Of a stretch of DNA of 64,000 nt, positions 23,053 through 39,712 are shown piece after piece. The position numbers and the translations under genes are program-made. Origin of the DNA: Oharaeibacter diazotrophicus (lineage in GTDB: Bacteria; Pseudomonadota; Alphaproteobacteria; Rhizobiales; Pleomorphomonadaceae). The notes beneath the pieces are model-generated. The model was not told the DNA's origin. It did not search any database and saw only the letters and a list, made by a program, of their open reading frames with translations. The stretch is taken from positions 372,001 to 436,000 of the forward strand of contig NZ_SNXY01000008.1 of the NCBI RefSeq assembly GCF_004362745.1, in the 5' to 3' direction. How positions within the stretch are numbered: the first letter of the stretch is position 1; the number at the start of each line of letters is the position of its first letter.

Positions 23053-26000
23053 ATGACGCCATCGGTGGGGCAATTCGTACGCGTCCGCTCTCGCCGATGG
23101 TTGGTGGAGAACACTGCGCCCGATAGGCGCTTCCCGGTCGTCCGCCTCGCCTGCATCGACGACGACGCCACGGGCGAGACGGTCGAAGTTCTCTGGGATG
23201 CCGAGCTCGACGGCGAGATTCTCGGCGAGGAGGGCTGGGGCCAGATCGCCAAGCGCGGCACGGACGACCCCGCCGTCTTCTCCGCCTACCTGAAGACGCT
23301 GCGCTGGAACACCGCCACGTCGGCCGACCGCGAGCTATTCCAGGCGCCCTTCCGCGCCGGCATCCACCTCGACGCCTTCCAGCTGCTGCCGCTGCGCAAG
23401 GCGCTGAAGCTCCCCCGTGTGAACCTCCTGATCGCCGACGACGTCGGCGCCGGCAAGACGATCGAGGCGGGCCTCGTCCTCCGCGAGCTGCTGCTGCGAC
23501 ACCGCATCGACTTCGTGGTCGTCATGGCGCCCGCCGGCACGGTCCGGCAGTGGCAGGACGAGCTGGAGACGAAGTTTGGCCTCACCTTCACCATCGTCGA
23601 TCGCGACTACCTGACGGCGCTCCGGCGCGAACGCGGCTACGGCGCCGACCCGTGGGCCTCAGGCTCGCGGTTCATCCTCTCCCACTCGCTGATCTCCGAC
23701 GAGACCTATGTCGCGGGTCTGCGCGACCTCCTCGGCGAGTTCCGCGCGCGCTCCCTGCTGATCCTCGACGAGGCGCACCACGCGGCACCAGCAAGTGGCA
23801 TGAAGTACGCCATCGAGAGCCAGTTCACCCGCTCCGTCCGCGCGCTCGCCGAGCGGTTCGAGCACCGCCTCTTCCTCTCCGCGACGCCGCACAACGGGCA
23901 CTCCAACTCCTTCTCCGCCCTCCTGGAGATCCTCGACCCGCAGCGCTTCACCCGAGGCGTGCCGGTGCGGCCAAAGGACCTGGAGCCGGTGATGGTCCGC
24001 CGCCTGAAGTCGGACCTCCGGCACTTCGGCGAGCGCTTCCCGCTGAGAAAGGTAGAGCCGATCAGGATCGCCGGCCTTCCCGCCGCCGCGCCGGAACTCG
24101 TCCTCGCGTCCATGCTTCGGGCCTATGCCTATGCCGTCCGGGCCAAGGCGGAGGGCCTGCCGCCGCGTGAAGCCGGCTACGTGCGCCTGACCCTCGTCGG
24201 CCTGCAGCAGCGCCTCCTGTCCTCGATCGCCGCCTTCGCCCGCACCCTCGACATACATCGCAAGGGGCTGCTGAAAGCCAGGGAGACGGAGGCCGGCACA
24301 TGGGCGGCCACCTCGCTCGGTGCGGCCGGCGAGATCGAGGAGGAGCCGGACGACGAGGTCGCGGCGGAGGCCCTGATCGCCCGCGACGAGGCGGACGCGG
24401 CCGAGGCGGCCGGCGTCGCCGCCGCCGCCGTCTCCGATCTCGCCATGGTCGACGAGATGCTGAAACTCGCCCGTCGCCACGCGCAGGAGCCGGACGCCCG
24501 CGTCGAGCACCTCGCCCGCTGGATCCGCGATCAGATGACCGCCGGCGGCGCCTGGACCGCGCGCCGGCTCATCCTCTTCACCGAATACGAGGACACCCGC
24601 CGCTGGCTGGAGAAGCGCCTCCTGGAAGCGCTCGACGACCTCGGCCCCGACGACCGCATCGCCTGCTACACCGGCGCGACGCCGACCGACCGCCGCGAGG
24701 AGCTGAAGCGCCGCTTCAACGCCGACCCTTCCGCCGACCCGCTCCGCATCCTGATCTGCACCGATGCCGCCCGCGAGGGCATCAATCTGCAGATGCGCTG
24801 CCACGACCTCATCCACGTCGACCTGCCCTGGAACCCCGCGCGCCTCGAACAGCGCAACGGGCGCATCGACCGCAAGCTCCAGCCCTCGCCGGTGGTCCAC
24901 TGCCGCTACTTCGTCTACGAGCAGCGCGAGGAGGACGTCGTCCTGCAGGCGCTGGTCCGCAAGACCGAGAAGATCCAGGACGAGCTCGGCTCCGCCGGCC
25001 AGGTCATCGCCGAGCGGATCAACCAGCGCCTGATGCGCGACGGCATCCGCGCCGCCGGCCGGCTCGCCAAGGAGATCGAGGCCGAGGGCGCGGAAGGGGA
25101 CGACCAGACCCGAACCGCCGTCGAGGAGATGGACGATGCGGTGCTGGCCCGCCGCGCCCGTCAGGCCAAGGAACTCGACGACCTCCGAGCCGTGCTGGAG
25201 GACAGCCGCAACCGCGTCGGCGTCGAGCCCAACGATCTGCGCGCCGTACTCTCGGTCGCCATGGACCGCACCGGTACCACGCTGGAGGCCCACCGCGACG
25301 CCGAGATCGAGGGCACGCCCACCTTCCGGCTCGATCCCGCCGAACCCGCCTTCCAGACCCAGGGCTGGGCGGAGGCGCTCGACGATCTCCGCATCCGCCG
25401 CCGCAAGCGGGGCGAGAGCCTCAAGGACTGGCGGCGCGACGCGCCCGTCCGCGCCTTCTCCTTCCGCCCGGCGATGACGGCCGCCGGCGTCGACGCCGAG
25501 AACGTCGTCCAGGTGCACCTGGAGCACCGGCTCGTCCGCCGGCTGCTTGCGCGCTTCATGGCCCAGGGCTTCGCCTCGGACCTGTCGCGGGCGAGCGTGG
25601 TAATCGGCCCCGGCGCCCAGCCGCGCGTCGTGCTCATCGGCCGCCTCGCCCTCTACGGCCCCGGCGCGGCGCGCCTGCACGAGGAGATGATCCTCGTCAC
25701 CGCCGCCTGGACCGAGGCCGGGCGCGGCACCAAGCCCCTGAAGCCCTACGGAACGCGCGGCGAGGAGGCGACGCTCGTCCAGCTGGAGGCAGCCTTCCGC
25801 GAGGCGCGCAAACCCGCCCCGCACATCGTCGACCGCATCCGCGCCTTCGCGGCTGAGGACGCGGCGGATCTCGACGCTGAACTCAAGGCCCGCGCCGCTG
25901 CGGCCAAGGCCGAGGCGGTGAAGGACCTCGCCAAGATCGCCGAGGCCGAGGCGACCTCCCTCCAGAAGCTGCTGGAGGACCAGCGCGCGCGCATCCTGAA

Positions 26001-26220
26001 GGCCGATGCCGAACCGGACGACCGGCAGCTCACCTTCCTCCCCGACAAGGCCGAGGAGATCGAGCAGCGCCGCCGCGACCGCCGGCACTGGAAGACCAAA
26101 CTGGACAAGCTCACGAGCGACATCGAAACCGGACCGCGCCGGGTGCGCGAGTCCTATGGCGTGGTGGCGGATCGGCTGGAGACCATCGGTCTCGTCTATC
26201 TCTGGCCGGAGGGGAACTGA
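23053..26220 (+). CDS. drmD: DISARM SNF2-like helicase DrmD
   Basis: A 1055-residue superfamily 2 ATPase of the SNF2/RapA type, the hallmark of class 1 DISARM. Motif I is ADDVGAGKTIEAG near residue 128, motif II LILDEAHHA near 238, motif III SATPHNGHS near 276, and motif VI LEQRNGRIDRKLQ near 599. A charged, partly coiled-coil C-terminus (about 930-1020, many Lys/Glu/Arg) follows. The ATG at 23053 has GGGGGGA just upstream; an in-frame start at 23011 is less good. The stop lies two bases before the drmMI start, so the two are one operon. Its promoter must be in 22815-23052, where a dyad at 22880-22897 may be the operator. Confidence 0.95.
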   Translation: MTPSVGQFVRVRSRRWLVENTAPDRRFPVVRLACIDDDATGETVEVLWDAELDGEILGEEGWGQIAKRGTDDPAVFSAYLKTLRWNTATSADRELFQAPFRAGIHLDAFQLLPLRKALKLPRVNLLIADDVGAGKTIEAGLVLRELLLRHRIDFVVVMAPAGTVRQWQDELETKFGLTFTIVDRDYLTALRRERGYGADPWASGSRFILSHSLISDETYVAGLRDLLGEFRARSLLILDEAHHAAPASGMKYAIESQFTRSVRALAERFEHRLFLSATPHNGHSNSFSALLEILDPQRFTRGVPVRPKDLEPVMVRRLKSDLRHFGERFPLRKVEPIRIAGLPAAAPELVLASMLRAYAYAVRAKAEGLPPREAGYVRLTLVGLQQRLLSSIAAFARTLDIHRKGLLKARETEAGTWAATSLGAAGEIEEEPDDEVAAEALIARDEADAAEAAGVAAAAVSDLAMVDEMLKLARRHAQEPDARVEHLARWIRDQMTAGGAWTARRLILFTEYEDTRRWLEKRLLEALDDLGPDDRIACYTGATPTDRREELKRRFNADPSADPLRILICTDAAREGINLQMRCHDLIHVDLPWNPARLEQRNGRIDRKLQPSPVVHCRYFVYEQREEDVVLQALVRKTEKIQDELGSAGQVIAERINQRLMRDGIRAAGRLAKEIEAEGAEGDDQTRTAVEEMDDAVLARRARQAKELDDLRAVLEDSRNRVGVEPNDLRAVLSVAMDRTGTTLEAHRDAEIEGTPTFRLDPAEPAFQTQGWAEALDDLRIRRRKRGESLKDWRRDAPVRAFSFRPAMTAAGVDAENVVQVHLEHRLVRRLLARFMAQGFASDLSRASVVIGPGAQPRVVLIGRLALYGPGAARLHEEMILVTAAWTEAGRGTKPLKPYGTRGEEATLVQLEAAFREARKPAPHIVDRIRAFAAEDAADLDAELKARAAAAKAEAVKDLAKIAEAEATSLQKLLEDQRARILKADAEPDDRQLTFLPDKAEEIEQRRRDRRHWKTKLDKLTSDIETGPRRVRESYGVVADRLETIGLVYLWPEGN

Positions 26221-26222
26221 GG

Positions 26223-29200
26223 ATGGCGGGGAACGATCCGAACGAGGAATGGCTCGGCCACGTCCAGCCGGTGGGCCTGGTGGTCGCGCCGGTGGTGCTG
26301 AAGACCTACGACCTCGTGCCCGAACCCCAGACGCGCACCGACACCGAAGCGGTCAGGGCGCACCTCACCCCCGGTGATGCCGGCCCCGCGCTCGCCGACG
26401 CCTTCGCCTTCTTCGCCGACGTCCTCGGCTGGCGGCCGCGCCAGGTGGCCGGCAGCCCCGGCGGCGCGCCGATCCCGGACGAGCTGATCCTCCGCATCGA
26501 CGAGAGCGACGTCGAAATCGCCCCGCACTGGGCGGTGACCAATCCCGCCGGCGGCTTCCAGATCCTTGTCCGCATCGAAGCGCCCGGCGTCGAGCCGGAT
26601 CAACGCAAGGCGCTGGATGGCTGGGAGGCGACGCCGCACCAGCGGCTGGAGCGGCTCTGCAAGGAACGCCAAGTCCGCATCGGCCTCCTCGTCACCGACG
26701 CGGAGCTGCGCCTCGTCTACGCCCCGCGCGGCGAGACCAGCGGCTGGCTGCGCTTCCCGCTGCGCTCGCTCGGCGAGGTCGGCGGCCGTCCCATGCTGGG
26801 CGGCCTCAAGCTGCTGCTCTCCTCCTTCCGCCTCCACAACGACGCGCCCGAGCGGCGGCTGCCGGCTCTTCTGCAGAAGAGCCGCGACGAGCAGGCGGAG
26901 GTCTCCACCAAGCTCGCGGCGCAGGTGCTCGGCGCCCTGCATGAGCTGATGCGCGGCCTCCACGACGCCGACCGCGCCCGCCTGGAGCGGCTGGCACGGA
27001 CCAACCCCGAGCACGTCTACGACGGCCTCCTCTCCGTCCTGCTCCGCCTCGTCTTCCTGCTCTACGCGGAGGACCGCGACCTCATCCCGTCCCGCACCGA
27101 CACCGCCGCGCGGGCGCTCTACGACCAGGGCTACGGCGTCCGCAGCCTGCACGCGCGCCTCGCCGAGGACCGGGCGCGGCACGAACTCACCATGCACCTG
27201 CGCCGCGGCGCCTGGGCGCGGCTGCTCGCCTTATTCCGCCTCGTCCACGCCGGCGACAGCTCCGGCGACTGGATCCGCGGGCGCGGCGGCAAGCTGTTCG
27301 ACCCCGCCGCCTTCCCCTTCCTGCAGGGCCAGGACGATCCTGCCGATCCGCCGAAGCCCGCCGACGTCTCGGACGAGTGCATCGCCCGGGTGCTCGACCG
27401 CCTCCTGGTGCTGTCAGGCGAGAAGCTCTCCTACCGCACGCTCGACGTGGAGCAGATCGGCAGCGTCTACGAGACCGTGATGGGCTTCACGGTGGAGACC
27501 ATGGACGGTCCCGCCCTCGCCATCCGCGCCGGCAAGAACGACAAGACGCCCGTCTTCGTGAACCTCACCAAGCTCCTCGCCGCTAAGCCGGCGGACCGGG
27601 CGAAACACCTGAAGGAGGAGGCGGACCGCGGCAAGCTGCCCGACAAGGTGGACAAGGCCGTGAAGGCGGCCGGCACCATCGACGCCCTCGTCGACGCGCT
27701 CCGCCCCATCGTCGACGAGCGCGCCTCGCCGGGCGCCGCCGTCTCGGCCCCCGGCACGCCGCTCCTGCAGCCGACCGACGAGCGGCGGCGGACGGGCAGC
27801 CACTACACCCCGCGCGCGCTCACCGGCCCGATCGTGCAGCACGCGCTGGAGCCCGCCTTCGCGCGCATCGGCCCGGATGCCTCTGCGGAGGACGTGCTGT
27901 CCCTGAAGGTCTGCGACCCCGCCATGGGCTCGGGTGCCTTTCTGGTGGAGGCCTGCAGGGCGCTCGCCGACCGCCTCGTCCTCGCCTGGGCGCGCTGGCC
28001 GGAGACGCGGCCGACCATCCCACCCGACGAGGACGAGCCCCTGCACGCCCGCCGCCTCGTCGCCCAGCGCTGCCTCTACGGCGTCGACAAGAACCCGCGC
28101 GCGGTCGACCTCGCCAAGCTCTCCCTCTGGCTCGCGACCCTCGCCCGCGACCACGAGTTCACCTTCCTCGACCACGCGCTGAAATGCGGCGACAGTCTCG
28201 TCGGGCTCGACGACAAGCAGATCGCGACCCTGCATTGGGAACCGAGCAAGGCCGGCCTGCCGTTGTTCGAAAAATTCCTGGCCGAGACCGTCTCGGCCGT
28301 CGCCGACAAGCGCGTCGCCATCCAGACCGCGCCCGACGACGCCCGCCGCATCCGCCTGGAATTCCTCAACCGGGAGGCCGAGGAGCGCGCAGCCCGCGCC
28401 CGCGTCTACGGCGACGCGGTGCTCTCCGCCTACTTCGCGGAGGAGAAGCCCAAGGCGCGCGAGAAGCGGCGGCTGGAGATCGAGAACACGGTGATCCAGG
28501 GCGGCGACGCGGCCCGGGAGCAGCTCGCCGCCGCCGCGGCCAACCTGCGCAAGGGCGACCACCCGATCACGCCCTTCCACTGGCCGATCGAGTTCCCCGA
28601 GGTGTTCCGCCGCGAGCCCGCCGGCTTCGACGCAATCGTCGGCAACCCGCCCTTCGCCGGCAAGAACACCGTCATCGCCGGCAACCGCGCGCACTACCTG
28701 CCTTGGCTGCAGACCCTGCACGAGGGCGCCCACGGCAACGCCGACCTCGTCGCCCACTTCTTCCGCCGTGCCTTCGCGCTCCTGCGTCCCGACGGCGCCT
28801 TCGGCCTGATCGCCACCAACACCATCGGCCAGGGCGATACCCGCGACACCGGCCTTGCGACCCTCCTGGAGTCCGGCGGCGCGATCGCCCGCGCCACGCG
28901 CCGGCTGAAATGGCCGGGCGAGGCGGCGGTGGTGGTCAGCGTCGTCCACGTGGTGCGCGGGACGATCCGCTCGCCGATCCTCGACGGCCGGCAGGTGCCG
29001 CGCATCTCCGCCTATCTGGTCGCCGGCGACCTCGACCGCTCGCCGGCCCGGCTGGCGGCCAACGCCCGCAAGGCGTTCCAGGGCTCCATCGTCCTCGGGA
29101 TGGGCTTCACCTTCGACGACGTCGCGGCGGCGAAGGGCGAGGCGGAGAGCCTCGACACCATGCGGGCGCTGATCGCGAAGGATCCACGGAATGCGGAGCG

Positions 29201-30230
29201 GATCTTTCCGTATATCGGTGGCGAGGAGATCACGACTTCTCCTACCCAATCGCATCACCGTTACGTGATAGACTTCTTTGACCGCCCGCTCGGTCGTCGC
29301 AAAGATCTAAACAACTGGGCGATGACGCCGCCCCAAATGCGTGAACATTGTTTGGCGCGCGGCTTTGTTCCTCTCGATTATTCATGTGAAGTTGCGGAAG
29401 ACTGGCCCGACCTAATTGAAATCCTACGGCTTCGTGTGAAACCTGAACGTGATAGACAAACGCGGGATGCCCGTAGGGAAAGATGGTGGCAGTACGCAGA
29501 AAAGAGTGCTGGCCTGTACAAAGCGATAGCGCCGCTAGAGCGGCTACTAGTTAACTCCAGCAAGGCCACTCCGCATCATGCATTTATCTTCCTCAAAAAA
29601 GGTTTTGTCTATTCGCAGAATCTCAACGTATTCGCACTCGATCGGTCATCTAAATTTTCCGTCATGCAATCTCGGATCCATGAAGTATGGGGCCGGTTCG
29701 TCGGAACAACCATGAAGGATGACTACACTTACACGAAAGATGACTGCTTCGAGACCTTCCCCTTTCCGCCCGGCATCGAGACCTCTCCCACCCTAGAAGC
29801 CGCGGGGCAGGCCTATCACGACTTCCGGGCCGCGCTCATGGTCGAGAACGACCAGGGCATGACCAAGACCTACAACCGCTTCCACGATTCGCTGGAGCGC
29901 TCGCCCGGCATCCTGCGCCTGCGCGACCTCCACGCCGACATGGACCGTGCGGTGCTCGCCGCCTACGGCTGGGACGATCTCGCCGCCCGCGCCGAGCCCG
30001 TCTTCCTCGAAAAGCCGGCCGACGAGAACGGCAAGGGCTACAAGCCCGGCGAGCCGGAGGACGACCACACCTACCAAGGCCGCCTGTTCTGGCCCTCCGA
30101 CTTCCGCGACGAAGTCCTCGCCCGCCTCCTCGCCCTCAACGCCGAACGCGCGGCGGCGGAGAAGGCGGCGGGGCTGGTGGCGGCCGGCTCACCGGAGGAT
30201 GACGACAGCGACGACGGGGAGGAAGCGTGA
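26223..30230 (+). CDS. drmMI: DISARM adenine-specific DNA methyltransferase DrmMI
   Basis: A 1335-residue Eco57I-type N6-adenine methyltransferase that protects host DNA in class 1 DISARM. Motif I for S-adenosylmethionine is KVCDPAMGSGAF near residue 562, and the catalytic motif IV is IVGNPPFAGKN near 806. The first 540 residues are the helical N-terminal part typical of the family, including LLRLVFLLYAEDRDLIP near 265. The C-terminal part (about residues 998-1178, bases 29215-29755) should be the target recognition domain; it is strikingly A+T-rich compared with the rest. One hand-counted line, 29581-29640, has 23 G/C of 60, against 42 of 60 for 28561-28620. This suggests replacement of the specificity region by recombination. 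No nuclease motif is evident. Confidence 0.95.
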   Translation: MAGNDPNEEWLGHVQPVGLVVAPVVLKTYDLVPEPQTRTDTEAVRAHLTPGDAGPALADAFAFFADVLGWRPRQVAGSPGGAPIPDELILRIDESDVEIAPHWAVTNPAGGFQILVRIEAPGVEPDQRKALDGWEATPHQRLERLCKERQVRIGLLVTDAELRLVYAPRGETSGWLRFPLRSLGEVGGRPMLGGLKLLLSSFRLHNDAPERRLPALLQKSRDEQAEVSTKLAAQVLGALHELMRGLHDADRARLERLARTNPEHVYDGLLSVLLRLVFLLYAEDRDLIPSRTDTAARALYDQGYGVRSLHARLAEDRARHELTMHLRRGAWARLLALFRLVHAGDSSGDWIRGRGGKLFDPAAFPFLQGQDDPADPPKPADVSDECIARVLDRLLVLSGEKLSYRTLDVEQIGSVYETVMGFTVETMDGPALAIRAGKNDKTPVFVNLTKLLAAKPADRAKHLKEEADRGKLPDKVDKAVKAAGTIDALVDALRPIVDERASPGAAVSAPGTPLLQPTDERRRTGSHYTPRALTGPIVQHALEPAFARIGPDASAEDVLSLKVCDPAMGSGAFLVEACRALADRLVLAWARWPETRPTIPPDEDEPLHARRLVAQRCLYGVDKNPRAVDLAKLSLWLATLARDHEFTFLDHALKCGDSLVGLDDKQIATLHWEPSKAGLPLFEKFLAETVSAVADKRVAIQTAPDDARRIRLEFLNREAEERAARARVYGDAVLSAYFAEEKPKAREKRRLEIENTVIQGGDAAREQLAAAAANLRKGDHPITPFHWPIEFPEVFRREPAGFDAIVGNPPFAGKNTVIAGNRAHYLPWLQTLHEGAHGNADLVAHFFRRAFALLRPDGAFGLIATNTIGQGDTRDTGLATLLESGGAIARATRRLKWPGEAAVVVSVVHVVRGTIRSPILDGRQVPRISAYLVAGDLDRSPARLAANARKAFQGSIVLGMGFTFDDVAAAKGEAESLDTMRALIAKDPRNAERIFPYIGGEEITTSPTQSHHRYVIDFFDRPLGRRKDLNNWAMTPPQMREHCLARGFVPLDYSCEVAEDWPDLIEILRLRVKPERDRQTRDARRERWWQYAEKSAGLYKAIAPLERLLVNSSKATPHHAFIFLKKGFVYSQNLNVFALDRSSKFSVMQSRIHEVWGRFVGTTMKDDYTYTKDDCFETFPFPPGIETSPTLEAAGQAYHDFRAALMVENDQGMTKTYNRFHDSLERSPGILRLRDLHADMDRAVLAAYGWDDLAARAEPVFLEKPADENGKGYKPGEPEDDHTYQGRLFWPSDFRDEVLARLLALNAERAAAEKAAGLVAAGSPEDDDSDDGEEA

Positions 30231-30232
30231 GC

Positions 30233-30463
30233 CTATTGTCCCGACTTCCCTTTGCCTTCCAGCAGGTCGTTCAGCGACGCCACACCCTCGTGCTCGAGCA
30301 AGGTATCGAGCCGCATATCGGCGCGACGACCCTCGGCGAAATCACTGCCATATGTCCCGCGCAGAGTGCGGACCAGCGTGTCACCACGCTTGGCGCGCGT
30401 TTGCCCGTCATCGTTCCGTTGCCGGCCGTTCAGGCCCGGCTGCTTCGATCGCGGCATGTCCAT
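30233..30463 (-). CDS. Small divergent protein inside the DISARM locus (76 aa)
   Basis: A 76-residue protein on the minus strand, with MPRSKQPGLNGRQRNDDGQ near the start and RGDTLVRTLRGTYGSDF, then MRLDTLLEHEGVASLNDLL. The pattern PGLNGR, then GDTLV-TLR-TYG, then LDTLLE...SL is one I recall from small proteins of accessory islands in other bacteria; no function is known to me. Its stop is two bases from the drmMI stop, and its start faces the XRE-ImmA gene across 90 bases that hold inverted repeats. ATG at 30463 or 30457 are both possible. It could be an antitoxin or modulator for the neighbouring module. Confidence 0.6.
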   Translation of the reverse strand: MDMPRSKQPGLNGRQRNDDGQTRAKRGDTLVRTLRGTYGSDFAEGRRADMRLDTLLEHEGVASLNDLLEGKGKSGQ

Positions 30464-30491
30464 CAATCCAGTCTACAATTTAGTAAGGGAG

Positions 30492-30526
30492 TGCAACATA
30501 ATCTTGCAATTCCCGTTTCGCAAGAT
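30492..30526. promoter_or_regulatory. Overlapping inverted repeats in the divergent promoter inside the DISARM locus
   Basis: Two dyads share a centre: TGCAA (30492-30496) with TTGCA (30504-30508), and ATCTTGC (30501-30507) with GCAAGAT (30520-30526, 12-base spacer). CATAAT at 30497-30502 resembles a -10 box in the plus direction. They lie 28-62 bases before the XRE-ImmA start and are good operators for its helix-turn-helix domain. Confidence 0.55.
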
Positions 30527-30553
30527 ATGTCTTCCGCGATGGAGGATGGAGCT

Positions 30554-31687
30554 ATGGCCCAAGTGCTCATCGGTCAGCGCCTGAAGGCGCTCCGGGAAGA
30601 ACGCCACCTCACGCAGGACGACCTCGCGCAGATGTTTGGCTTCAACGACCGCCAGACGGTCTCGTCGATCGAGAAGGGGGACCGCAAGCTCTCGGCCGTG
30701 GAACTGCTGACGGCGGTGCGTGCGCTGAACGTCGAACTCGATTATTTCACCGACCCCTTCCGTCTTGTCAGTGGCGAGGGACGGTTCAACTGGCGCCAAT
30801 CGGGGGTCCTGTCCCCTCGGCTGGACGCCTATGAGACGATCGCCGGGCGACTGATCGCCGCTTATCGAGTCCTGCGCGACGACGTCGGCGAGAAGCCGGC
30901 GCTCATGCGCGCCACTCTCACCTTGTCGAAGAACCCCCGTTTTGAGGATGCCGAGGCGGCGGGCGAACGTTTTGCGGCCGAGTACGACCTCGGTGAAGCC
31001 CCGGCGCTGCGGCTGGCGGAGGCGATGGAAAGCAGGCTCTCCGTTCTCGTGCTGATGGTGGACCCGAACGACGATGGGATTTCCGGCGCCGCCTGTCGTC
31101 TAACGGATCTCGACGTGGTCCTGATCAATCGCAACGAAGTGCCGGGCCGGCGCCATTTCGACCTCGCGCACGAACTGTTCCACGTCCTCACCTGGGAGGC
31201 GATGCCGCCTGATCGGACGGAGGACACATCCGAAACCGCGAAGCGCTCGCGAGTCGAGCAACTGGCGGACTGCTTCGCCGGCGGATTGCTGATGCCGCGA
31301 CGCATCGTCGAGGCGGCAGCGGATTGGAAGGCGATCGGTGCCGATGCGCTGCCGGCCACGCTCAACGGGACGGCCGAACGTCTCGGCGTGACTTCTGTGG
31401 CGCTGAAATGGCGACTGGTCTCGCTCGGGCTACTCAGCAAAGCGACCGCTGAACTCGTTCCGGGCGACGCCTTGCGCAACAACGGTCGCATCGGCGGGCT
31501 GTTCGCCGAGGACGCCCAACGCGAGTTTCCACCGCTGTTCTCGCGCCGGTTCGTCGAGATCGTCGCCCGCGCGATCGACGAGGGCCGCGTCTCGACGCGA
31601 AAGGTCGCAAGTCTCCTCGGCGTGGCGGTCGACGATCTTGACCCGCTCTTCGCTCAGCACGGCGTGCCGGCGCCGTACGAGATTTGA
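30554..31687 (+). CDS. XRE helix-turn-helix fused to an ImmA/IrrE-type metallopeptidase
   Basis: A 377-residue fusion protein. Residues about 4-65 are a Cro/C1 DNA-binding domain (IGQRLKALREERHLTQDDLA, then NDRQTVSSIEKGDRKLS). Residues about 150-280 are an M78 (ImmA/IrrE) zinc peptidase with HFDLAHELFHVLTW near 200, giving the HExxH site. In known ImmR/ImmA and DdrO/IrrE pairs, the peptidase cleaves a repressor after a stress signal; here both activities sit in one chain. The ATG at 30554 is preceded by GGAGG; upstream in-frame starts at 30527 and 30539 are possible. The next gene, a PIN protein, starts 7 bases after the stop. Autoregulation through the dyads at 30492-30526 is likely. Confidence 0.92.
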   Translation: MAQVLIGQRLKALREERHLTQDDLAQMFGFNDRQTVSSIEKGDRKLSAVELLTAVRALNVELDYFTDPFRLVSGEGRFNWRQSGVLSPRLDAYETIAGRLIAAYRVLRDDVGEKPALMRATLTLSKNPRFEDAEAAGERFAAEYDLGEAPALRLAEAMESRLSVLVLMVDPNDDGISGAACRLTDLDVVLINRNEVPGRRHFDLAHELFHVLTWEAMPPDRTEDTSETAKRSRVEQLADCFAGGLLMPRRIVEAAADWKAIGADALPATLNGTAERLGVTSVALKWRLVSLGLLSKATAELVPGDALRNNGRIGGLFAEDAQREFPPLFSRRFVEIVARAIDEGRVSTRKVASLLGVAVDDLDPLFAQHGVPAPYEI

Positions 31688-31694
31688 GGCTGCC

Positions 31695-32210
31695 GTGGCG
31701 CGGTTGCGAGAAACCATCCTGGTCGACACCAACGTCCTCATCGAGGCGTGGCGGATCGACGGATGGCGCGCGCTACGCGGCGGATACGCTCTTGAGACGG
31801 TGGGGGAATGCGTGATCGAAACCCAGACCGGCTTTCAGCAGCGTAAGCCGGAACAGCGTATCGACGACGCTGAGCTCCGCGCAGGGCTCAAGGCGATCCA
31901 TGTCGTATCTGATGTGGAGCGCGCCTCTGCGCATGTTCGTGACCCTGAGATCGCTTTTCTCGACCTGGGCGAGAAGGCACTTTGGGCCCATGCGCTGGCG
32001 CGGACGGACGCCTGGGTCCTATGCGGCCCAGACAAGGCGAGCCTGCGCATCGGCGTTCGAGCCGGCCTCTCCGATCGGCTTGTGTCCTTGGAGCGCCTCC
32101 TCAACGACGCTGGCCACCGCCCGAAGACGCAGCTGAAGACCGCGTACACGAAAGACTGGCTGAGCCGCACGCTCGCCGCACTCGCGCTGCGTGAAGGAAA
32201 ATTCGCGTGA
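31695..32210 (+). CDS. PIN-domain protein, probable RNase
   Basis: A 171-residue PIN-like protein. Acidic residues expected for metal binding are visible: Asp in ILVDTNVLIEA near residue 12, Glu in GECVIET near 38, Glu in LGEKALWAHA near 93, and Asp in CGPDKASL near 112. GTG at 31695 follows GAGG by five bases and lies 7 bases after the XRE-ImmA stop; earlier in-frame starts overlap that gene. The stop overlaps the GTG of drmA (GTGA at 32207-32210), so it is translated together with drmA. XRE-ImmA plus PIN resembles toxin-antitoxin pairs in which the PIN protein is the toxic RNase, but here the arrangement also suggests a DISARM effector. Confidence 0.8.
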   Translation: MARLRETILVDTNVLIEAWRIDGWRALRGGYALETVGECVIETQTGFQQRKPEQRIDDAELRAGLKAIHVVSDVERASAHVRDPEIAFLDLGEKALWAHALARTDAWVLCGPDKASLRIGVRAGLSDRLVSLERLLNDAGHRPKTQLKTAYTKDWLSRTLAALALREGKFA

Positions 32211-35200
32211 TTGACCCGACCTCCCCCACCGCCGTCCGCGCGCGCCTCGTCGACACCCTGCGGCGCGACCTGATCGGTCCGGGACCGCGGGACGCGGATC
32301 TTTCGGACGAGCGGCTCAAGGACAACCCCTCGCGCTGGTATCTCACCGGCTTCCTCGTGCCCGCCCCGCTCGACGGCACCGAGGACGAGATCGCGCTGGA
32401 AGAGCCCGGCGACATGGCGACCACCGAGGACGAGGGCGCCGATCCCGAGACCGGCGCCGCCCGCGCCGCCGACGACGCCGCGCCCGACGATCCCGCCCCG
32501 CGCCGTCCGCTCGCGCCTTCCTCCTGCGGCCTCACGGTGCTGGTCGACGCCAGAGCGACGACGGTGGATGTCACCGTCACCTGGGGCGACTACGTCACCG
32601 AGCCACCGCTGCCGCCGGAGGTCTTCGAGGACGAGAAGGCCGCCTACGATCCGAAGCACCAGACCGTCGAGTGGCACCGCAAGCCCGGGCGCGCTATCGT
32701 CACCCTGCCGATCCCGAAGCCCGGCGAGCGCGTGGGCCGCACGCTGGAGGGCTCCGGCGGCCGCCAGGGCCCGCGCGGCGGCGGTCTCGTCGTCGAGGCC
32801 TTCGCGCGGCCCTATCGGCTCGACTGCGCCAACGGCAGCAAGGCCGACGTGGTGGCGCTCACGGTCATGGTCGTCAACCGCCGCGACCCCGCCCGCCGCC
32901 GCTTCGCCGACGTCACCTTCGCCTTCCAGGTACGGCTTGAGGTGCGCAGCGCCCTGCCGCTCTTCCCGCGCACCGACATGACCGGCTTCGGCTCCGCCGA
33001 CCCGGACGCCGCCACTGCCGACCTGCACTATCGCGACGTCGCCGAATACGCCGTCGGCAACGCCACCTCAGCCGGCTGGACCCCGGACGACGACGGCGTC
33101 GTGCGCGCCGCCCACACCGACTTCCTACCTGCCGCCGAGGTGGAGCGCGTCGAGCCGAACGAGACCATCGCCGCCACTTTCGGCATGGAGGCGCTGGCAA
33201 GCCTCGCCGCCGGCGACCCCGCCGCCCTTTCCGCCGCGCTCGCCGGCCTGCCGCACGCCTATCGCGCCTGGATCGAGGCCGAGACCGGAAAGGTGCCCGC
33301 CATCGACGGCGCCCCGCGCCGCAAGACGGCCGATGCCCTGCTCACCGCCGCCCGCCGCGCCCACGGCCGCATCCAGGCCGGCATCGACCTGCTTGCCCGA
33401 GACAAGTGGGCGCGTCTCGCCTTTCGCGCCATGAACGAGGCCGTCGCCCGCGCCGCTCGCCGCCGCAACGCCGGCCGTACGAAGAAACCGGAGGACATGG
33501 ATCCGCCGACCTGGCGCCCGTTCCAGCTCGCCTTCGTCCTTCTCAACCTGCCGGGCCTGAAAGATAAGCTCCACGACGATCGCGAACTCGTGGACCTCCT
33601 GTTCTTCCCGACCGGCGGCGGCAAGACCGAGGCTTATCTGGGCCTTGCCGCCTGGACCATCGCCCACCGCCGGCTCACCGCCTCTGGCCGGCTCGGCGCC
33701 GGCGTCGCGGTGCTGATGCGCTACACGCTCCGCCTCCTCACCCTCGACCAGCTCGCCCGCGCCGCCGGCGTCGTCTGCGCGCTCGAACTGATGCGCGGCG
33801 AGCCCGCCTGGACGGACGGCAAGACGCCGCTCCTCGGCGACTGGCCGATCGAGATCGGCCTCTGGGTCGGCTCCGCCGCCTCGCCCAACCGGCTCGGCAA
33901 GAAGGGCGACGGCAAGCCGGACACGGCCGTCTCGCGCGTCCACCGCTTTAAGGCCTCGGGCCGGGAGGCGCCCGCGCCGATCAAGGCTTGTCCCTGGTGC
34001 GCCGAACCCTTCACGGCCGACAGCTTCGCCTGCACGCCGACGGCGATGGCGCCCAAGAACATGGAGATCCGCTGCACCAACCCGGACTGCGACTTCACCG
34101 GCGCCCGTCCGCTACCGATCCTGACCGTCGACGAAGCGATCTACCGCCGTCTCCCCGCCTTCGTGATCGCCACCGTCGACAAATTCGCCGGCCTGCCCTG
34201 GCTCGGCGAGGCCGGTGCCTTCTTCGGCCACGTGAACCGCACCGACGAATGGGGCTTCTACGGCGCCAACGACGCGCCCGGCGACGGCAAGCCACTCGGC
34301 AACGGCCACACGCTGGACCCGCCGGACCTCATCATTCAGGACGAGCTCCATCTCATCAGCGGTCCGCTCGGCACCGTCGCTGCGCTTTACGAGGTTGCGC
34401 TCGACCGTCTCGCGACCCGCTTCATGATGGGCAGGCGCATCCGGCCGAAGATCGTCGCCTCCACGGCCACCGTCCGCCGCGCCTCGGCGCAGATCCGCGC
34501 GCTTTTCGACCGCGCGACGACCGAGATCTTCCCGCCGCCCGGCCCCGACCGCCGCGACAGCTTCTTCGCCCGGACCGTGCCGCCGTCCGAGAAGCCCGCG
34601 CGCCTCTATCTCGGCCTCGCCGCCGCCGGCAAGGGCCCGAAGCTCGTCTTCCTGCGCACGCTCACCTCGATGCTCGCCGCCGCGCAGAAGGAGGCCGACG
34701 ACGGCAACGAGGCCGACGCCTACATGACCGCACTCGGCTACTTCAACGCGCTGCGCGAACTCGGCGGCGCACGCCGCATCGTCGAGGACGAGGTGCGCAC
34801 GCGTCTCGCCACCTACGGCATGGAGCGCCGCCGCCTCCACCCGGCCGACCAGCCCTTCGCCGACCGTCGCCTCCGCGACGTGCTCGAACTCACCTCGCGC
34901 GAGAGCACCGACAAGGTCGCCGCCGCCAAAGACGCGCTCGCCATACAGGCGGCGGCCAAGAACGGCGTCGACGTCGCGCTCGCCACCAACATGATCTCCG
35001 TCGGCCTCGACATCACGCGTCTCGGCCTGATGCTGATGCAGGGCCAGCCGAAGTCCGCCTCGGAATACATCCAGGCGTCGAGCCGCGTCGGCCGCGACGG
35101 CGGCAGGCCGGGTCTGGTGCTCACGCTCCTCAACGCGCAGAAGCCGCGCGACCGCCTGCACTACGAAAAATTCCGCCAGTTCCACGCCGCCTTCTACCGC

Positions 35201-35662
35201 GTGGTGGAGCCGACGAGCGTCACGCCTTGGGCGGCCCGCGCCATCGACCGCGCCCTCGCAGCCGTCGTCGTCGCCTGCGTCCGACACCTCCATCCGGACC
35301 TCACGCCAGAGAAGAGCGCCGTGGAGATGCCGGACCACGTCAAGGCCGAGGAGATCGTCGAAGTTATCCTCGCCCGCGCACCGGCGGACGCCGTCGTCGG
35401 CGGCCATCCGGCGTTGCGAACGATTGTCGAAGACTTGCTCGCGACGTGGAAGCGATTGGCCGAGGACAGAGCCATTCACGGAGAGACGCTCTTCTACGGC
35501 CATCCGGGATCCCACGCGCTGCTGCACCAGCCGCTCGACCCATTGCTCCGCAGCCTCGACCCCGCCCTCGAAACCTTCAAGGCGGGCCGCTCGATGCGGG
35601 ATGTCGAGCACGCCTCGGCGCTCAAGATCGTCGACAACTTCGGCAAAGAACTCACGGCCTGA
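32207..35662 (+). CDS. drmA: DISARM helicase DrmA
   Basis: A 1151-residue superfamily 2 helicase with the DrmA layout: an N-terminal 450 residues without motifs, then FFPTGGGKTEAYLGL near 466 (motif I), RYTLRLLTLDQ near 504, DLIIQDELHLI near 707 (motif II), STATVRRAS near 753 (motif III), NMISVGLDITRLG near 928 and EYIQASSRVGRDGG near 953 (motif VI). A Cys4 zinc ribbon is inserted near 595-635 (CPWCAEPF and CTNPDC). The GTG at 32207 overlaps the PIN stop by GTGA, with GAAGGA as ribosome site. The drmB start follows 7 bases after its stop. DrmA is the helicase core with DrmB in known systems. Confidence 0.95.
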   Translation: MIDPTSPTAVRARLVDTLRRDLIGPGPRDADLSDERLKDNPSRWYLTGFLVPAPLDGTEDEIALEEPGDMATTEDEGADPETGAARAADDAAPDDPAPRRPLAPSSCGLTVLVDARATTVDVTVTWGDYVTEPPLPPEVFEDEKAAYDPKHQTVEWHRKPGRAIVTLPIPKPGERVGRTLEGSGGRQGPRGGGLVVEAFARPYRLDCANGSKADVVALTVMVVNRRDPARRRFADVTFAFQVRLEVRSALPLFPRTDMTGFGSADPDAATADLHYRDVAEYAVGNATSAGWTPDDDGVVRAAHTDFLPAAEVERVEPNETIAATFGMEALASLAAGDPAALSAALAGLPHAYRAWIEAETGKVPAIDGAPRRKTADALLTAARRAHGRIQAGIDLLARDKWARLAFRAMNEAVARAARRRNAGRTKKPEDMDPPTWRPFQLAFVLLNLPGLKDKLHDDRELVDLLFFPTGGGKTEAYLGLAAWTIAHRRLTASGRLGAGVAVLMRYTLRLLTLDQLARAAGVVCALELMRGEPAWTDGKTPLLGDWPIEIGLWVGSAASPNRLGKKGDGKPDTAVSRVHRFKASGREAPAPIKACPWCAEPFTADSFACTPTAMAPKNMEIRCTNPDCDFTGARPLPILTVDEAIYRRLPAFVIATVDKFAGLPWLGEAGAFFGHVNRTDEWGFYGANDAPGDGKPLGNGHTLDPPDLIIQDELHLISGPLGTVAALYEVALDRLATRFMMGRRIRPKIVASTATVRRASAQIRALFDRATTEIFPPPGPDRRDSFFARTVPPSEKPARLYLGLAAAGKGPKLVFLRTLTSMLAAAQKEADDGNEADAYMTALGYFNALRELGGARRIVEDEVRTRLATYGMERRRLHPADQPFADRRLRDVLELTSRESTDKVAAAKDALAIQAAAKNGVDVALATNMISVGLDITRLGLMLMQGQPKSASEYIQASSRVGRDGGRPGLVLTLLNAQKPRDRLHYEKFRQFHAAFYRVVEPTSVTPWAARAIDRALAAVVVACVRHLHPDLTPEKSAVEMPDHVKAEEIVEVILARAPADAVVGGHPALRTIVEDLLATWKRLAEDRAIHGETLFYGHPGSHALLHQPLDPLLRSLDPALETFKAGRSMRDVEHASALKIVDNFGKELTA

Positions 35663-35669
35663 GGAGCGC

Positions 35670-37556
35670 ATGGCAAAAGACCACGTTCGCATGGGGCAGG
35701 TCGTCGGCCTGTTCGGGCCGGGTGCCATGATGGACCTGCCGGACCGTTCGGTGCTCGTCATGGGCCTCGACCACTGGGAGGCCTTCGGCCCGAAGCCCTT
35801 CGAATCGATCGAGGAGCCTCGACTGGCGCAGCTCCTGGAACGCCGGCTCGCGGGCGGCGACGACAAGCGCATCGCCGGCGACAAGCCGGTCAGCTTCCGC
35901 ACGCCGCCCATCGACCCCGGCGATCCGCGCCAGTCGTCGCCAGCGATCAAGGCACGCGTCTTCCCCGAATGGTTCGCCTGCGACGCCATCCCCGGCGATC
36001 CGCCCAACCGCCGCCGCATCGTCCGCTTCAGCGATCTCGAAGCGCCGAAGCGGCTGGACTGGAAGGGCGACGACGGCAAAAAGCGCCGCGTGTCGCCTCT
36101 GCGGTTCGTCTGCGGCTGCGAGACCGGGCACCTCCAGGACATCGAATGGCGCCGTGTCGTCCATGCGCGGCAGTCGGGTGAGGCAGGTGCATGTCGCAAA
36201 CCGATGTGGCTCGAAGACGCCGGAACGAGCGCCGACCCGCGCGACACACGGATCGTCTGCGACTGCGGCGCGAAGCTCTCCCTCGAAGATCTCTTCCAGC
36301 CCGGCCGGCTCGGCCCCTGCGGCGGCAAGCGCCCCTGGCTCAGTTCGGATGATCCCGCCGGATGCGACAAGTCGCTTCGGCTGCTGACGCGAAGCGCGAC
36401 GAACACTTACTTCCCCCAAGTGGTCCGCGTAATTTCGCTGCCCGAATCGAACGACGCCCTGGAGAAGGCGCTCGATGCCGTCTGGTCGGAGGTCAGCAAG
36501 TGCGGGTCCGTCGCGGAAGTAGCGATGGCCAAGAAATTCAATCCGACGGTCGCGGCCAACCTCGGTCCCTTCGCCGACGATGAGATCTTCGCACGCATCG
36601 AAACCCGGAAAGCGGGGTCCGGGTCCGGTTCTCGGGATCTCCAACAGAACCCGAGGATCGCTGAGTTCCAGCTCCTCGCCAGCGGCCGGAAGCTCATCGG
36701 TGAGAACCGGCCCGATGCCCGCCTGCACGCCGAGACCCTCGACCGCAGTGTCTGGGATCCCAAGCGCGATCCGATGCTCACGGCGATCAAGGACCTCGTC
36801 GCCGTCCACCGCCTGCGCGAGGTTTCCTGTCTCTACGGGTTCACCCGCTTCGAGCCGGCCCCGCTGGCTGACGACGGCGTCGAGGACGTCGGCCTTGCCG
36901 TAAACGGTGCGCCGCTTGGCGAGAACCCGGACTGGCTGCCGGCCGTCGAACAGTTCGGCGAGGGCTTTTTCATCCGCCTCGATCCGGACGAGCTCGCCAA
37001 ATGGGCAGCACGCCCGAAGGTGCAGGAACGCCGTGCGACGATCGAGGGCGGCCTGAAGGCATGGAGCCGGGCCCGACGCGCCCGCGGCGCATCCGACAAG
37101 ATCGCCTGGGAAGGCGAGCATATCGAATTCACGATGGCGCACAGCCTCTCACACGCGCTGATGAACGAGGTCGCCATCGATTGCGGCTACCCGGCGAGCT
37201 CCCTCAAGGAGCGCCTCTATTTGCTCCCCGCTCTTCCCGGCGATCCGAAAGAATGCGGCATCCTGATCTACACCGCGAGCGCAGGGAACCAGGGCACGCT
37301 GGGCGGCTTGGTCGAAGTGACCCGGCGGTTTCCAGCGGTCATGGCGTCGGCGCTGGCACGCCTCGGCCTCTGTTCGGGCGACCCGATCTGCGCCGACCAC
37401 GATCCGACGAAGGCCGCCGAAGATCGCGCCCTTCACGGCGCGGCCTGCCATGGCTGCCTGCTGGTCGCCGAAACCAGCTGCGAACAGCGGAACGTCTTCC
37501 TGGACCGGAGTCTGCTCGTCGAAACGATCGCGGCGCAGGGGGCCAGCTTGTTTTGA
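35670..37556 (+). CDS. drmB: DISARM protein DrmB (DUF1998)
   Basis: A 628-residue protein with the C-terminal DUF1998 domain: AHSLSHALMNEVAIDCGYPASS near 490, IYTASAGNQGTLGGLVE near 535, and the Cys-rich end CHGCLLVAETSCEQRN near 595. Zinc-type Cys pairs are also present near 150 (CGCETGHLQ) and 190 (CDCGAKLSLEDLF). It starts with MAKDHVRMGQVVGLFGPGAM, the usual DrmB beginning, after GAGGAG. It is the partner of DrmA in blocking entry of phage DNA. The gene is the last of the DISARM operon here: the integrase gene ends 10 bases downstream and drmC is absent. Confidence 0.95.
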   Translation: MAKDHVRMGQVVGLFGPGAMMDLPDRSVLVMGLDHWEAFGPKPFESIEEPRLAQLLERRLAGGDDKRIAGDKPVSFRTPPIDPGDPRQSSPAIKARVFPEWFACDAIPGDPPNRRRIVRFSDLEAPKRLDWKGDDGKKRRVSPLRFVCGCETGHLQDIEWRRVVHARQSGEAGACRKPMWLEDAGTSADPRDTRIVCDCGAKLSLEDLFQPGRLGPCGGKRPWLSSDDPAGCDKSLRLLTRSATNTYFPQVVRVISLPESNDALEKALDAVWSEVSKCGSVAEVAMAKKFNPTVAANLGPFADDEIFARIETRKAGSGSGSRDLQQNPRIAEFQLLASGRKLIGENRPDARLHAETLDRSVWDPKRDPMLTAIKDLVAVHRLREVSCLYGFTRFEPAPLADDGVEDVGLAVNGAPLGENPDWLPAVEQFGEGFFIRLDPDELAKWAARPKVQERRATIEGGLKAWSRARRARGASDKIAWEGEHIEFTMAHSLSHALMNEVAIDCGYPASSLKERLYLLPALPGDPKECGILIYTASAGNQGTLGGLVEVTRRFPAVMASALARLGLCSGDPICADHDPTKAAEDRALHGAACHGCLLVAETSCEQRNVFLDRSLLVETIAAQGASLF

Positions 37557-39683: not shown

Positions 39684-39712
39684 TGGCGGAGAGGGAGGGA
39701 TTCGAACCCCCG
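39684..39712. other. Probable attachment site (attR) in the tRNA-Ser 3' end
   Basis: Tyrosine recombinases of this kind usually recombine within the T-arm and acceptor end of the tRNA they neighbour, which here is 39684-39712. This is inferred from the position of the integrase only; no matching copy was seen elsewhere in the window. Confidence 0.35.

Follow-up and report, generated by a model that had tools for sequence, protein, structure and literature searches.

Class 1 DISARM combines drmD and drmMI with the core genes drmA and drmB. In the accessible part of the DISARM structure paper (PMC9142583), DrmC is described as dispensable and often missing, and the DISARM nuclease question as unsolved. 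Xre-COG2856/PIN toxin-antitoxin (TA) pairs (PMC2701414; ImmA/PIN in NetFlax, PMC10440598) are self-contained and consist of an HTH_3-Peptidase_M78 fusion with an adjoining PIN gene; the available portions of these two papers do not mention DISARM. For RosmerTA (RmrA/RmrT), differing RmrT toxins exist according to the same portion of PMC10440598. The regulators CapH+CapP, CapW (BrxR) and CapK+CapS, with HTH and metalloprotease, adjoin varied immune operons, among which DISARM is named, and such regulators work by repression and release, as stated in the available sections of PMC13373217. No paper on the combination of DISARM with an XRE/ImmA-PIN pair was found in a literature search that had most subscription journals outside its reach.

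An XRE-ImmA/PIN cassette between drmMI and drmA

The analysed window is a 64,000-nt stretch of the Oharaeibacter diazotrophicus genome. According to PADLOC and NCBIfam scores, the class 1 DISARM genes drmD and drmMI and the core genes drmA and drmB are all present, and the gene calls bear out the order and strands claimed in the first-pass annotation, namely drmD, drmMI, a divergent ORF, XRE-ImmA, PIN, drmA and drmB (Table 1; for drmB, ATG 35670 was chosen, with alternative ATGs at 35601 and 35691). The overlap between PIN and drmA, also claimed there, is indeed 4 nt long, the GTGA that ends PIN holding the drmA start at 32207. No match to DrmC/PLD was found with PADLOC, Pfam and NCBIfam in the three ORFs scanned 3' of drmB, and a tblastn search with a single DrmC query gave none either. 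The missing drmC lowers the fit to class 1 DISARM, yet such absence is common.

Table 1. Features of the DISARM locus in the O. diazotrophicus window
Feature	Position	Strand	Basis
drmD, SNF2-like helicase	23053..26220	+	PADLOC DrmD 976 bits; ATG at 23053, open frame from 23011
drmMI, Eco57I/MmeI-type methyltransferase	26223..30230	+	PADLOC DrmMI 1228 bits; Pfam Eco57I, MmeI_Mtase, MmeI_TRD
Small divergent ORF, 76 aa, accessory	30233..30463	-	no profile match
Operator-like site and putative cassette promoter	30489..30534	+	core CTTGCA-N11-GCAAG at 30503-30524
XRE-ImmA fusion, predicted autorepressor/protease/antitoxin	30554..31687	+	Pfam HTH_3 + Peptidase_M78
PIN-fold nuclease gene (putative toxin/effector)	31695..32210	+	GTG start; AlphaFold model + PDB matches
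drmA, YprA-family helicase	32207..35662	+	PADLOC DrmA 834 bits; GTG start inside PIN stop
drmB, DUF1998/MZB protein	35670..37556	+	NCBIfam DrmB_fam 499 bits; PADLOC 260 bits; Pfam MZB

The XRE-ImmA protein contains an HELFH motif and matches the PADLOC models RmrA (78 bits, residues 5-366) and capP (52 bits). Its active-site residues H206 and E207 are present in 70 and H210 in all of the 71 rows of alignment A4. The structure model (pLDDT 94) has as fold neighbours C.AhdI, which is a restriction-modification (R-M) controller, IrrE/PprI, PprI with ssDNA, CapP and CapH, all with a probability of 1.00 but with E > 0.001. The PIN gene had no match in the profile libraries NCBIfam and PHROGs, nor in PADLOC and Pfam, which were run on its longer-start version, and its profile had none among the PDB chain sequences. 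The PIN fold is suggested by an AlphaFold model (pLDDT 93) and by its PDB matches, with VapC4 PIN toxins among the best. The putative catalytic residues D11, E42, D90 and D113 are found in 69, 70, 70 and 70 of the 70 rows of alignment A3. Both XRE-ImmA and PIN are under purifying selection, with dN/dS values of 0.017-0.148 (9 pairs). Two PIN relatives were found on viral contigs.

The divergent 76-aa gene, listed with the module earlier, is an accessory gene: few cassette loci have a relative of it (L022, L023 and L029, with a broken copy in L111 of G455), one more relative occurs in G129, and it had no profile match in PADLOC, Pfam, NCBIfam and PHROGs. We rejected it as a constant member of the unit, its place being occupied elsewhere by DUF2188, ankyrin-repeat or co-oriented genes. 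At its position in two other loci there is a gene which we take to be GIY-YIG-like.

A conserved operator-like site upstream of XRE-ImmA

The core CTTGCA-N11-GCAAG lies just 5' of XRE-ImmA in all 38 cassette-bearing DISARM loci (37 exact, one with a single mismatch), while shuffled upstream regions contain none. It is absent before drmD in all 21 of these loci that show this stretch. When 79 loci were scanned with a site matrix built with spacing 11 (L063 excluded), a second site was detected in the non-DISARM locus L094 only. In 39 cassette-free drmA loci no site score exceeded 11.2, whereas the cassettes' own sites had a median of 39.6. This conserved operator-like site is newly recognised here.

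It was claimed before that the module has its own divergent promoter inside the operon. The conserved operator-like site supports a putative separate, regulated promoter before PIN, drmA and drmB. Counting 17 nt on from TTGCAA/TTGCAT, 34 of the 37 exact-core loci have a hexamer that starts with TA, whereas the window's own hexamer at this spacing is ATGTCT; TTGCA in the putative -35 region is no extra evidence, because it is part of the search core. A scan of 30100-32400 for consensus promoters and terminators detected nothing. A regulon beyond the locus was considered and rejected: the whole O. diazotrophicus genome has two exact cores, the locus' own site and one on C12, and with one mismatch allowed the reversed-pattern controls (69 and 77) exceed the matches (26 and 22).

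Recurrence of the cassette and its DISARM lineage

The expected recurrence of the pair directly upstream of drmA in distant genomes was found, and the cassette is not strain-specific. Among 85 PIN loci obtained from the best 80 of 118 relatives, many of them on contigs of metagenome-assembled genomes, drmA adjoins the pair in 39, in the invariable order XRE-ImmA, PIN, drmA according to mechanical gene calls. These loci span several alphaproteobacterial orders and are located on chromosomes and plasmids. After removal of near-duplicates (L100, L117, L082-L085), the 4-nt coupling is retained in 29 of 39 loci with cassette and drmA. Among loci selected through DrmA, 5 of the 15 having drmMI carried the cassette, all in a lineage without detected drmC; the weak DrmA matches G023, G048 and G055 (E 3.5e-8 to 7e-4) lie outside the analysed set.

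In the remaining 46 of the 85 loci (again from the best 80 of 118 relatives) the pair has no drmA beside it. Thus, it does not need DISARM, and in DISARM it represents a co-opted unit. This would suit an autonomous addiction module, inserted once or a few times and kept because its loss kills, with no role in defence regulation. In line with this, the site core is shared within one mismatch by 31 of 41 non-DISARM pairs (shuffled upstream regions, 0), housekeeping genes such as those for UvrC (L051), anthranilate synthase (L050), queuosine synthesis (L073) and a solute-binding protein (L066) are found as neighbours, and the Xre-COG2856 fusion beside PIN is a known kind of TA pair (PMC2701414, PMC10440598). 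We nevertheless consider this explanation unlikely. Between drmMI and drmA the cassette always has the same position and orientation, and the coupling to PIN ties drmA expression to the cassette transcript unless read-through supplies drmA. Moreover, the association with DISARM is stable on the XRE+PIN tree, where the DISARM label changes 4 times, whereas shuffling gave 24.9 changes on average and none of 500 shuffles went as low (the shuffles address clustering of this label only). The distances of PIN and of XRE-ImmA correlate with those of DrmA (r = 0.77 and r = 0.84, n = 32; 0 of 999 permutations). The XRE+PIN tree (without the ten short or stop-containing rows L039, L041, L042, L048, L054, L067, L068, L077, L081 and L087) and the DrmA tree (without L036, L060, L081 and L127) are quick trees with long-branch warnings.

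On the DrmA tree the cassette is confined to one clade without drmC match, in which 36 of 43 rows carry it, while none of the 16 drmC-bearing rows does; drmC was sought by tblastn with a single cyanobacterial DrmC query, and in seven of the 38 cassette loci the sequence extends less than 1200 nt past drmB, or drmB is not seen. It is tempting to assume that PIN could be the effector nuclease of DrmA-DrmB in this lineage, silenced by XRE-ImmA. Such a role would be compatible with the frequent lack of DrmC and the nuclease question mentioned above (PMC9142583, available part), and in five non-DISARM loci, assigned by cluster, the pair directly precedes a YprA-like DEAD-Helicase_C-MZB helicase (domains confirmed in L065 and L069). 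However, these five loci form one group of the XRE+PIN tree, the absence of drmC is a single tree event, and seven rows of the clade (L014, which has the closest DrmA at 81%, L095, L096, L099, L103, L105 and L118) have neither drmC nor PIN. Since drmC absence thus does not require PIN, the candidate role of PIN as a simple DrmC replacement is weakened, and we regard an effector function as rather improbable.

Other DISARM lineages harbour different genes or nothing between drmMI and drmA (the slot content of L113 is unreliable due to a broken drmMI alignment). One could speculate, with considerable doubt, that this junction is a docking slot for guard or controller modules. The cassette would here give the helicase core a timing separate from that of the methylase and also provide the nuclease that is lacking, while other lineages would dock AAA_15 + DUF4435, MqsA/SecB, or a GHKL ATPase with a methyltransferase. 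Timing by the cassette would then follow the logic of R-M C-proteins with a damage-sensing protease, in the main drmC-less lineage. Some of these contents, AAA_15 + DUF4435 (PARIS-like) and an MqsA-type antitoxin with a SecB-like protein, resemble abortive pairs, and this, together with the TA architecture and the intact PIN active site, is consistent with a guard function: PIN would be released upon phage inhibition of DISARM or loss of XRE-ImmA, leading to abortive infection as a second line. Of 24 class 1 loci without a module, however, 14 have a drmMI-drmA gap of at most 111 nt and so no guard there. We regard this possibility as very unlikely.

A proposed built-in control unit and its comparison with known systems

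Our preferred explanation, to which we assign a probability of about 0.55, is that the cassette is a self-regulated TA-type pair serving as built-in control unit of one drmC-less class 1 DISARM lineage. XRE-ImmA would bind the conserved site, which overlaps its own putative promoter, and repress the transcript of XRE-ImmA, PIN, drmA and drmB, while drmD and drmMI would retain a separate transcription start. The helicase core would thus be kept repressed and separate from the protective methylase. The ImmA domain may be activated upon infection or DNA damage, probably via ssDNA, in analogy to CapH/CapP, PprI/DdrO and ImmA/ImmR, and would then cut off its own HTH or otherwise free the site. Cleavage inside one fused HTH-protease protein is less documented than in the two-protein CapH/CapP system. 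Upon derepression, drmA and drmB expression would rise, and PIN, freed or overproduced, might act as a back-up toxin or nuclease.

The first-pass reading that the module can switch or guard the core is partly supported: the cassette probably switches or guards drmA-drmB, because it has its own conserved control site and is placed directly before the core genes. The site could also serve autoregulation of the XRE-ImmA/PIN pair alone, and transcriptional read-through from drmD-drmMI may reach the cassette. The seven cassette-free rows of the same DrmA clade and the pairs located outside DISARM also weigh against a control unit, as do the empty promoter scan and the window's own hexamer at the 17-nt spacing. 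If the proposed control unit is true, a TA pair was domesticated as a component of a large defence operon. With an operator-like site and a protease-repressor located between the genes for methylase and helicase, the switch-on of DISARM becomes directly testable.

When compared to class 1 DISARM, the locus shares drmD, drmMI, drmA and drmB, and it differs by the lack of a detected drmC and by the cassette added between drmMI and drmA. Like the Xre-COG2856/PIN pairs, the cassette has an HTH fused to an HExxH protease with an adjacent PIN gene, and toxicity and its neutralisation are predicted. In contrast to these pairs, it is located inside DISARM, is coupled to drmA, has one conserved site and shows lineage-long co-inheritance. 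XRE-ImmA can be assigned to the RmrA-type, an ImmA-type antitoxin, while its PIN partner, in the longer-start version, matched no PADLOC model, but RosmerTA includes different RmrT toxins. With CapH+CapP the cassette has in common an HTH and a metalloprotease next to immune genes, but its HTH and protease are one fused gene instead of two; the conserved site before the immune genes is a candidate for repressor binding. Finally, it departs from the Cap-type controllers in having an interposed nuclease gene and in its mid-operon position between the methylase and the helicase core.

The cassette and the drmMI-drmA junction

The gene order that the first-pass annotation had proposed for the window (drmD, drmMI, a small divergent ORF, XRE-ImmA, PIN, drmA, drmB) was confirmed, and the recurrence for which it proposed a search, an XRE-ImmA/PIN cassette directly before drmA in other genomes, was found. 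PIN-based searches covered plasmids (5 of 72,556 records matched) and genome contigs (the best 80 of 118 relatives taken), and together yielded 85 PIN loci. In this set, with its contig share of the best 80, DrmA is encoded next in 39 loci, in the order XRE-ImmA, PIN, drmA, and not next in 46, three of which stop less than 300 nt past PIN. The 39 include five near-identical Mesorhizobium loci in which drmA is broken. Upstream, drmMI was found in 31 of the 39 and went undetected in eight (L060, L061, L067, L081-L085). One carrier is Streptomyces sp. AcH 505, the 19-kb contig of which may be contamination. Two viral contigs (L142, L143) code for PIN relatives, in L142 with a 363-aa ORF immediately upstream.

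DrmA-based searches of four overlapping samples (60, 385, 397 and 398 genomes; E of 1e-60 or better) gave 29 loci in 27 other genomes. A drmMI match is present in 15 of them, five with the cassette (L111, L120, L122, and also L100 and L117, which duplicate L019 and L021) and ten without; in L123 drmMI is on the opposite strand and side. The cassette is present in three of 18 plasmid DISARM regions (L009, L010, L011) and missing from the other 15.

Among 39 de-duplicated cassette-plus-drmA loci, including the window, the PIN stop and the drmA start overlap by 4 nt in 29. The annotation of L009 has a 1-nt overlap, at a codon common to L016-L018; a 5-nt gap separates the genes in L036, L037, L038 and L040, and drmA is broken or shifted in L034 and L081. 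Since drmMI can itself overlap drmA by 4 nt in six DISARM loci lacking the cassette (L096, L099, L103, L108, L126, L136), the cassette occupies an otherwise direct junction. This slot was surveyed in 24 of 25 cassette-less class 1 loci (L123 was left out): the drmMI stop is at most 111 nt from the first possible drmA start in 14, and at least one gene lies inside in nine (see the table), the reading for L113 being unreliable. For the pairs of AAA_15 and DUF4435 type, PADLOC reported AriA at 92 bits but PtuA at 107, and AriB at 25 bits. These pairs, like the MqsA/SecB and GHKL ATPase plus methyltransferase sets, belong to DISARM lineages other than the window's. L014, from Ensifer adhaerens, is the closest DrmA relative (81%). 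In L095, a compact Sphingomonas DISARM is located between cas3 and the remaining type I-E CRISPR operon.

Features of the window and contents of the drmMI-drmA slot in cassette-less loci
Feature	Position	Strand	Remarks
Probable integrative element	G000:C8:370731-411703 (contig C8 of the own genome); window about -1270 to 39703		
Conserved site	window 30503-30524 (core)		
675-aa ORF	window 37567-39594	-	adjoins tRNA; weak DUF6538 match, 21 bits, below cut-off
tRNA-Ser(CGA), 3' end	window 39684-39703		
L097 slot			AAA_15 + DUF4435 (PARIS-like); same-sized pairs in L129, L130
L098 slot			MqsA antitoxin + SecB-like
L137 slot			GHKL ATPase + Methyltransf_35; same-sized genes in L101
L135 slot			XisH/XisI
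L132 slot			unknowns
L014 slot	14046-14945 of L014		unknown 299-aa ORF in the cassette's place

An operator-like site before XRE-ImmA

In DISARM loci, the site cGCAA.AaAaTCTTGCA-N11-GCAAGAtTAtat lies upstream of XRE-ImmA. Its core, with one mismatch allowed, occurs in every one of the 38 DISARM loci that carry the cassette (37 exact); among the other loci it occurs in 31 of 41 (19 exact). None of the shuffled upstreams contained it. Only L094 has a second site among the 79 scanned loci, the stretch before drmD being visible in 21 of the 38. The best score in 39 cassette-less drmA loci was 11.2, against a median of 39.6 for sites upstream of a locus's own XRE-ImmA; the lowest of these own-site scores is far below zero, and the site is therefore absent from some non-DISARM pairs. 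The hexamer 17 nt past TTGCAA/TTGCAT starts with TA in 34 of the 37 exact-core loci, the window being one of the three exceptions. Based on the conserved site and the hexamer, XRE-ImmA is predicted most likely to bind its own promoter. A shared transcript starting at drmD would be less likely, because at least ten loci have a predicted opposite-strand gene separating drmMI from XRE-ImmA. That the cassette regulates drmA-drmB is in our opinion the best reading, with a probability slightly above even (about 0.55).

Inheritance and genomic setting

A DrmA tree was built for class 1 loci (61 rows); its proportions are not frequencies, because the rows without the cassette were picked by DrmA and those with it mostly by PIN. 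All 36 rows that carry the cassette group inside one 43-row clade. No row of this clade has a drmC match (little or no sequence is visible past drmB in 7 of 38 cassette loci), seven of its rows lack both drmC and the cassette, and the cassette is found in 0 of 16 drmC-bearing rows; as this is a single clade, the association does not independently prove a link with drmC. The XRE+PIN tree (74 rows) accounts for the DISARM label with 4 changes, compared with 24.9 on average for shuffled labels, and distances across 32 loci are correlated (XRE-PIN r = 0.88, PIN-DrmA 0.77, XRE-DrmA 0.84; 0 of 999 permutations). L016 and L017 have near-identical drmA (dS 0.04) and diverged cassettes (dS 0.71-0.75), while L016 and L009 show the opposite, diverged drmA and close cassettes; thus, pieces of the locus recombine.

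Outside DISARM, a helicase of one cluster is adjacent to the pair in five loci (L058, L065, L069, L074, L075). It resembles a fused DrmAB, and is of the DEAD-Helicase_C-MZB type in L065 and L069 (domains read) and helicase-like in L074. In four loci the pair follows TrwB-TrwC genes (domains read in L035; L043, L044 and L092 assigned by similarity), and the next genes in L035, L043 and L044 encode a NERD protein, PDC-S32 and Dsr2. Among those of the 46 non-DISARM loci that were scanned, others have housekeeping genes beside the pair.

The DISARM locus of the window is probably part of an integrative element of approximately 41 kb in tRNA-Ser(CGA). A 20-nt copy of the tRNA 3' end with one mismatch is located 41 kb leftward, similar inverted arms were seen by eye at both element ends, and two more near-copies, with 1 and 2 mismatches, are on contigs C11 and C6. 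The 675-aa ORF is perhaps the integrase, because DUF6538 is a domain of tyrosine recombinases.

Cassette proteins and related systems

The PIN gene had no match in any profile library tried (NCBIfam and PHROGs; PADLOC and Pfam with a longer start). A PDB comparison with its structure model, built from 70 relatives (pLDDT 93), gave PIN proteins as matches (best E 3.8e-4, probability 1.00, TM about 0.6), the second match being VapC4 of Pyrococcus horikoshii. The acidic residues D11, E42, D90 and D113 are present in 69, 70, 70 and 70 of 70 alignment rows, and all four are retained in the 32 DISARM rows. In XRE-ImmA, H206 and E207 are retained in 70 of 71 rows (the exception is L059, a non-DISARM locus) and H210 in all 71. 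The top PDB match of its model (pLDDT 94) is a M. tuberculosis regulator, followed, per domain, by the restriction-modification controller C.AhdI, IrrE/PprI, PprI with ssDNA, CapP and CapH, all with E above 0.001, yet with probability 1.00. For both cassette genes dN/dS is 0.017-0.148 (nine pairs).

According to the accessible portions of the literature, a known kind of toxin-antitoxin system pairs Xre-COG2856 fusions with PIN genes (PMC2701414), and PIN-like domains are associated with ImmA antitoxins (PMC10440598). Adjacent immune operons, DISARM being named, are controlled by CapW/BrxR and by CapH with CapP, and other such operons by CapK with CapS (PMC13373217). A YprA survey (PMC12458937, preprint) and the DISARM structure paper (PMC9142583) deal with the helicase and with the still open question of the nuclease. 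These portions of the five papers contain no description of the XRE-ImmA/PIN cassette. The pair is of a known kind, and its place is new, conserved and mechanistically suggestive.
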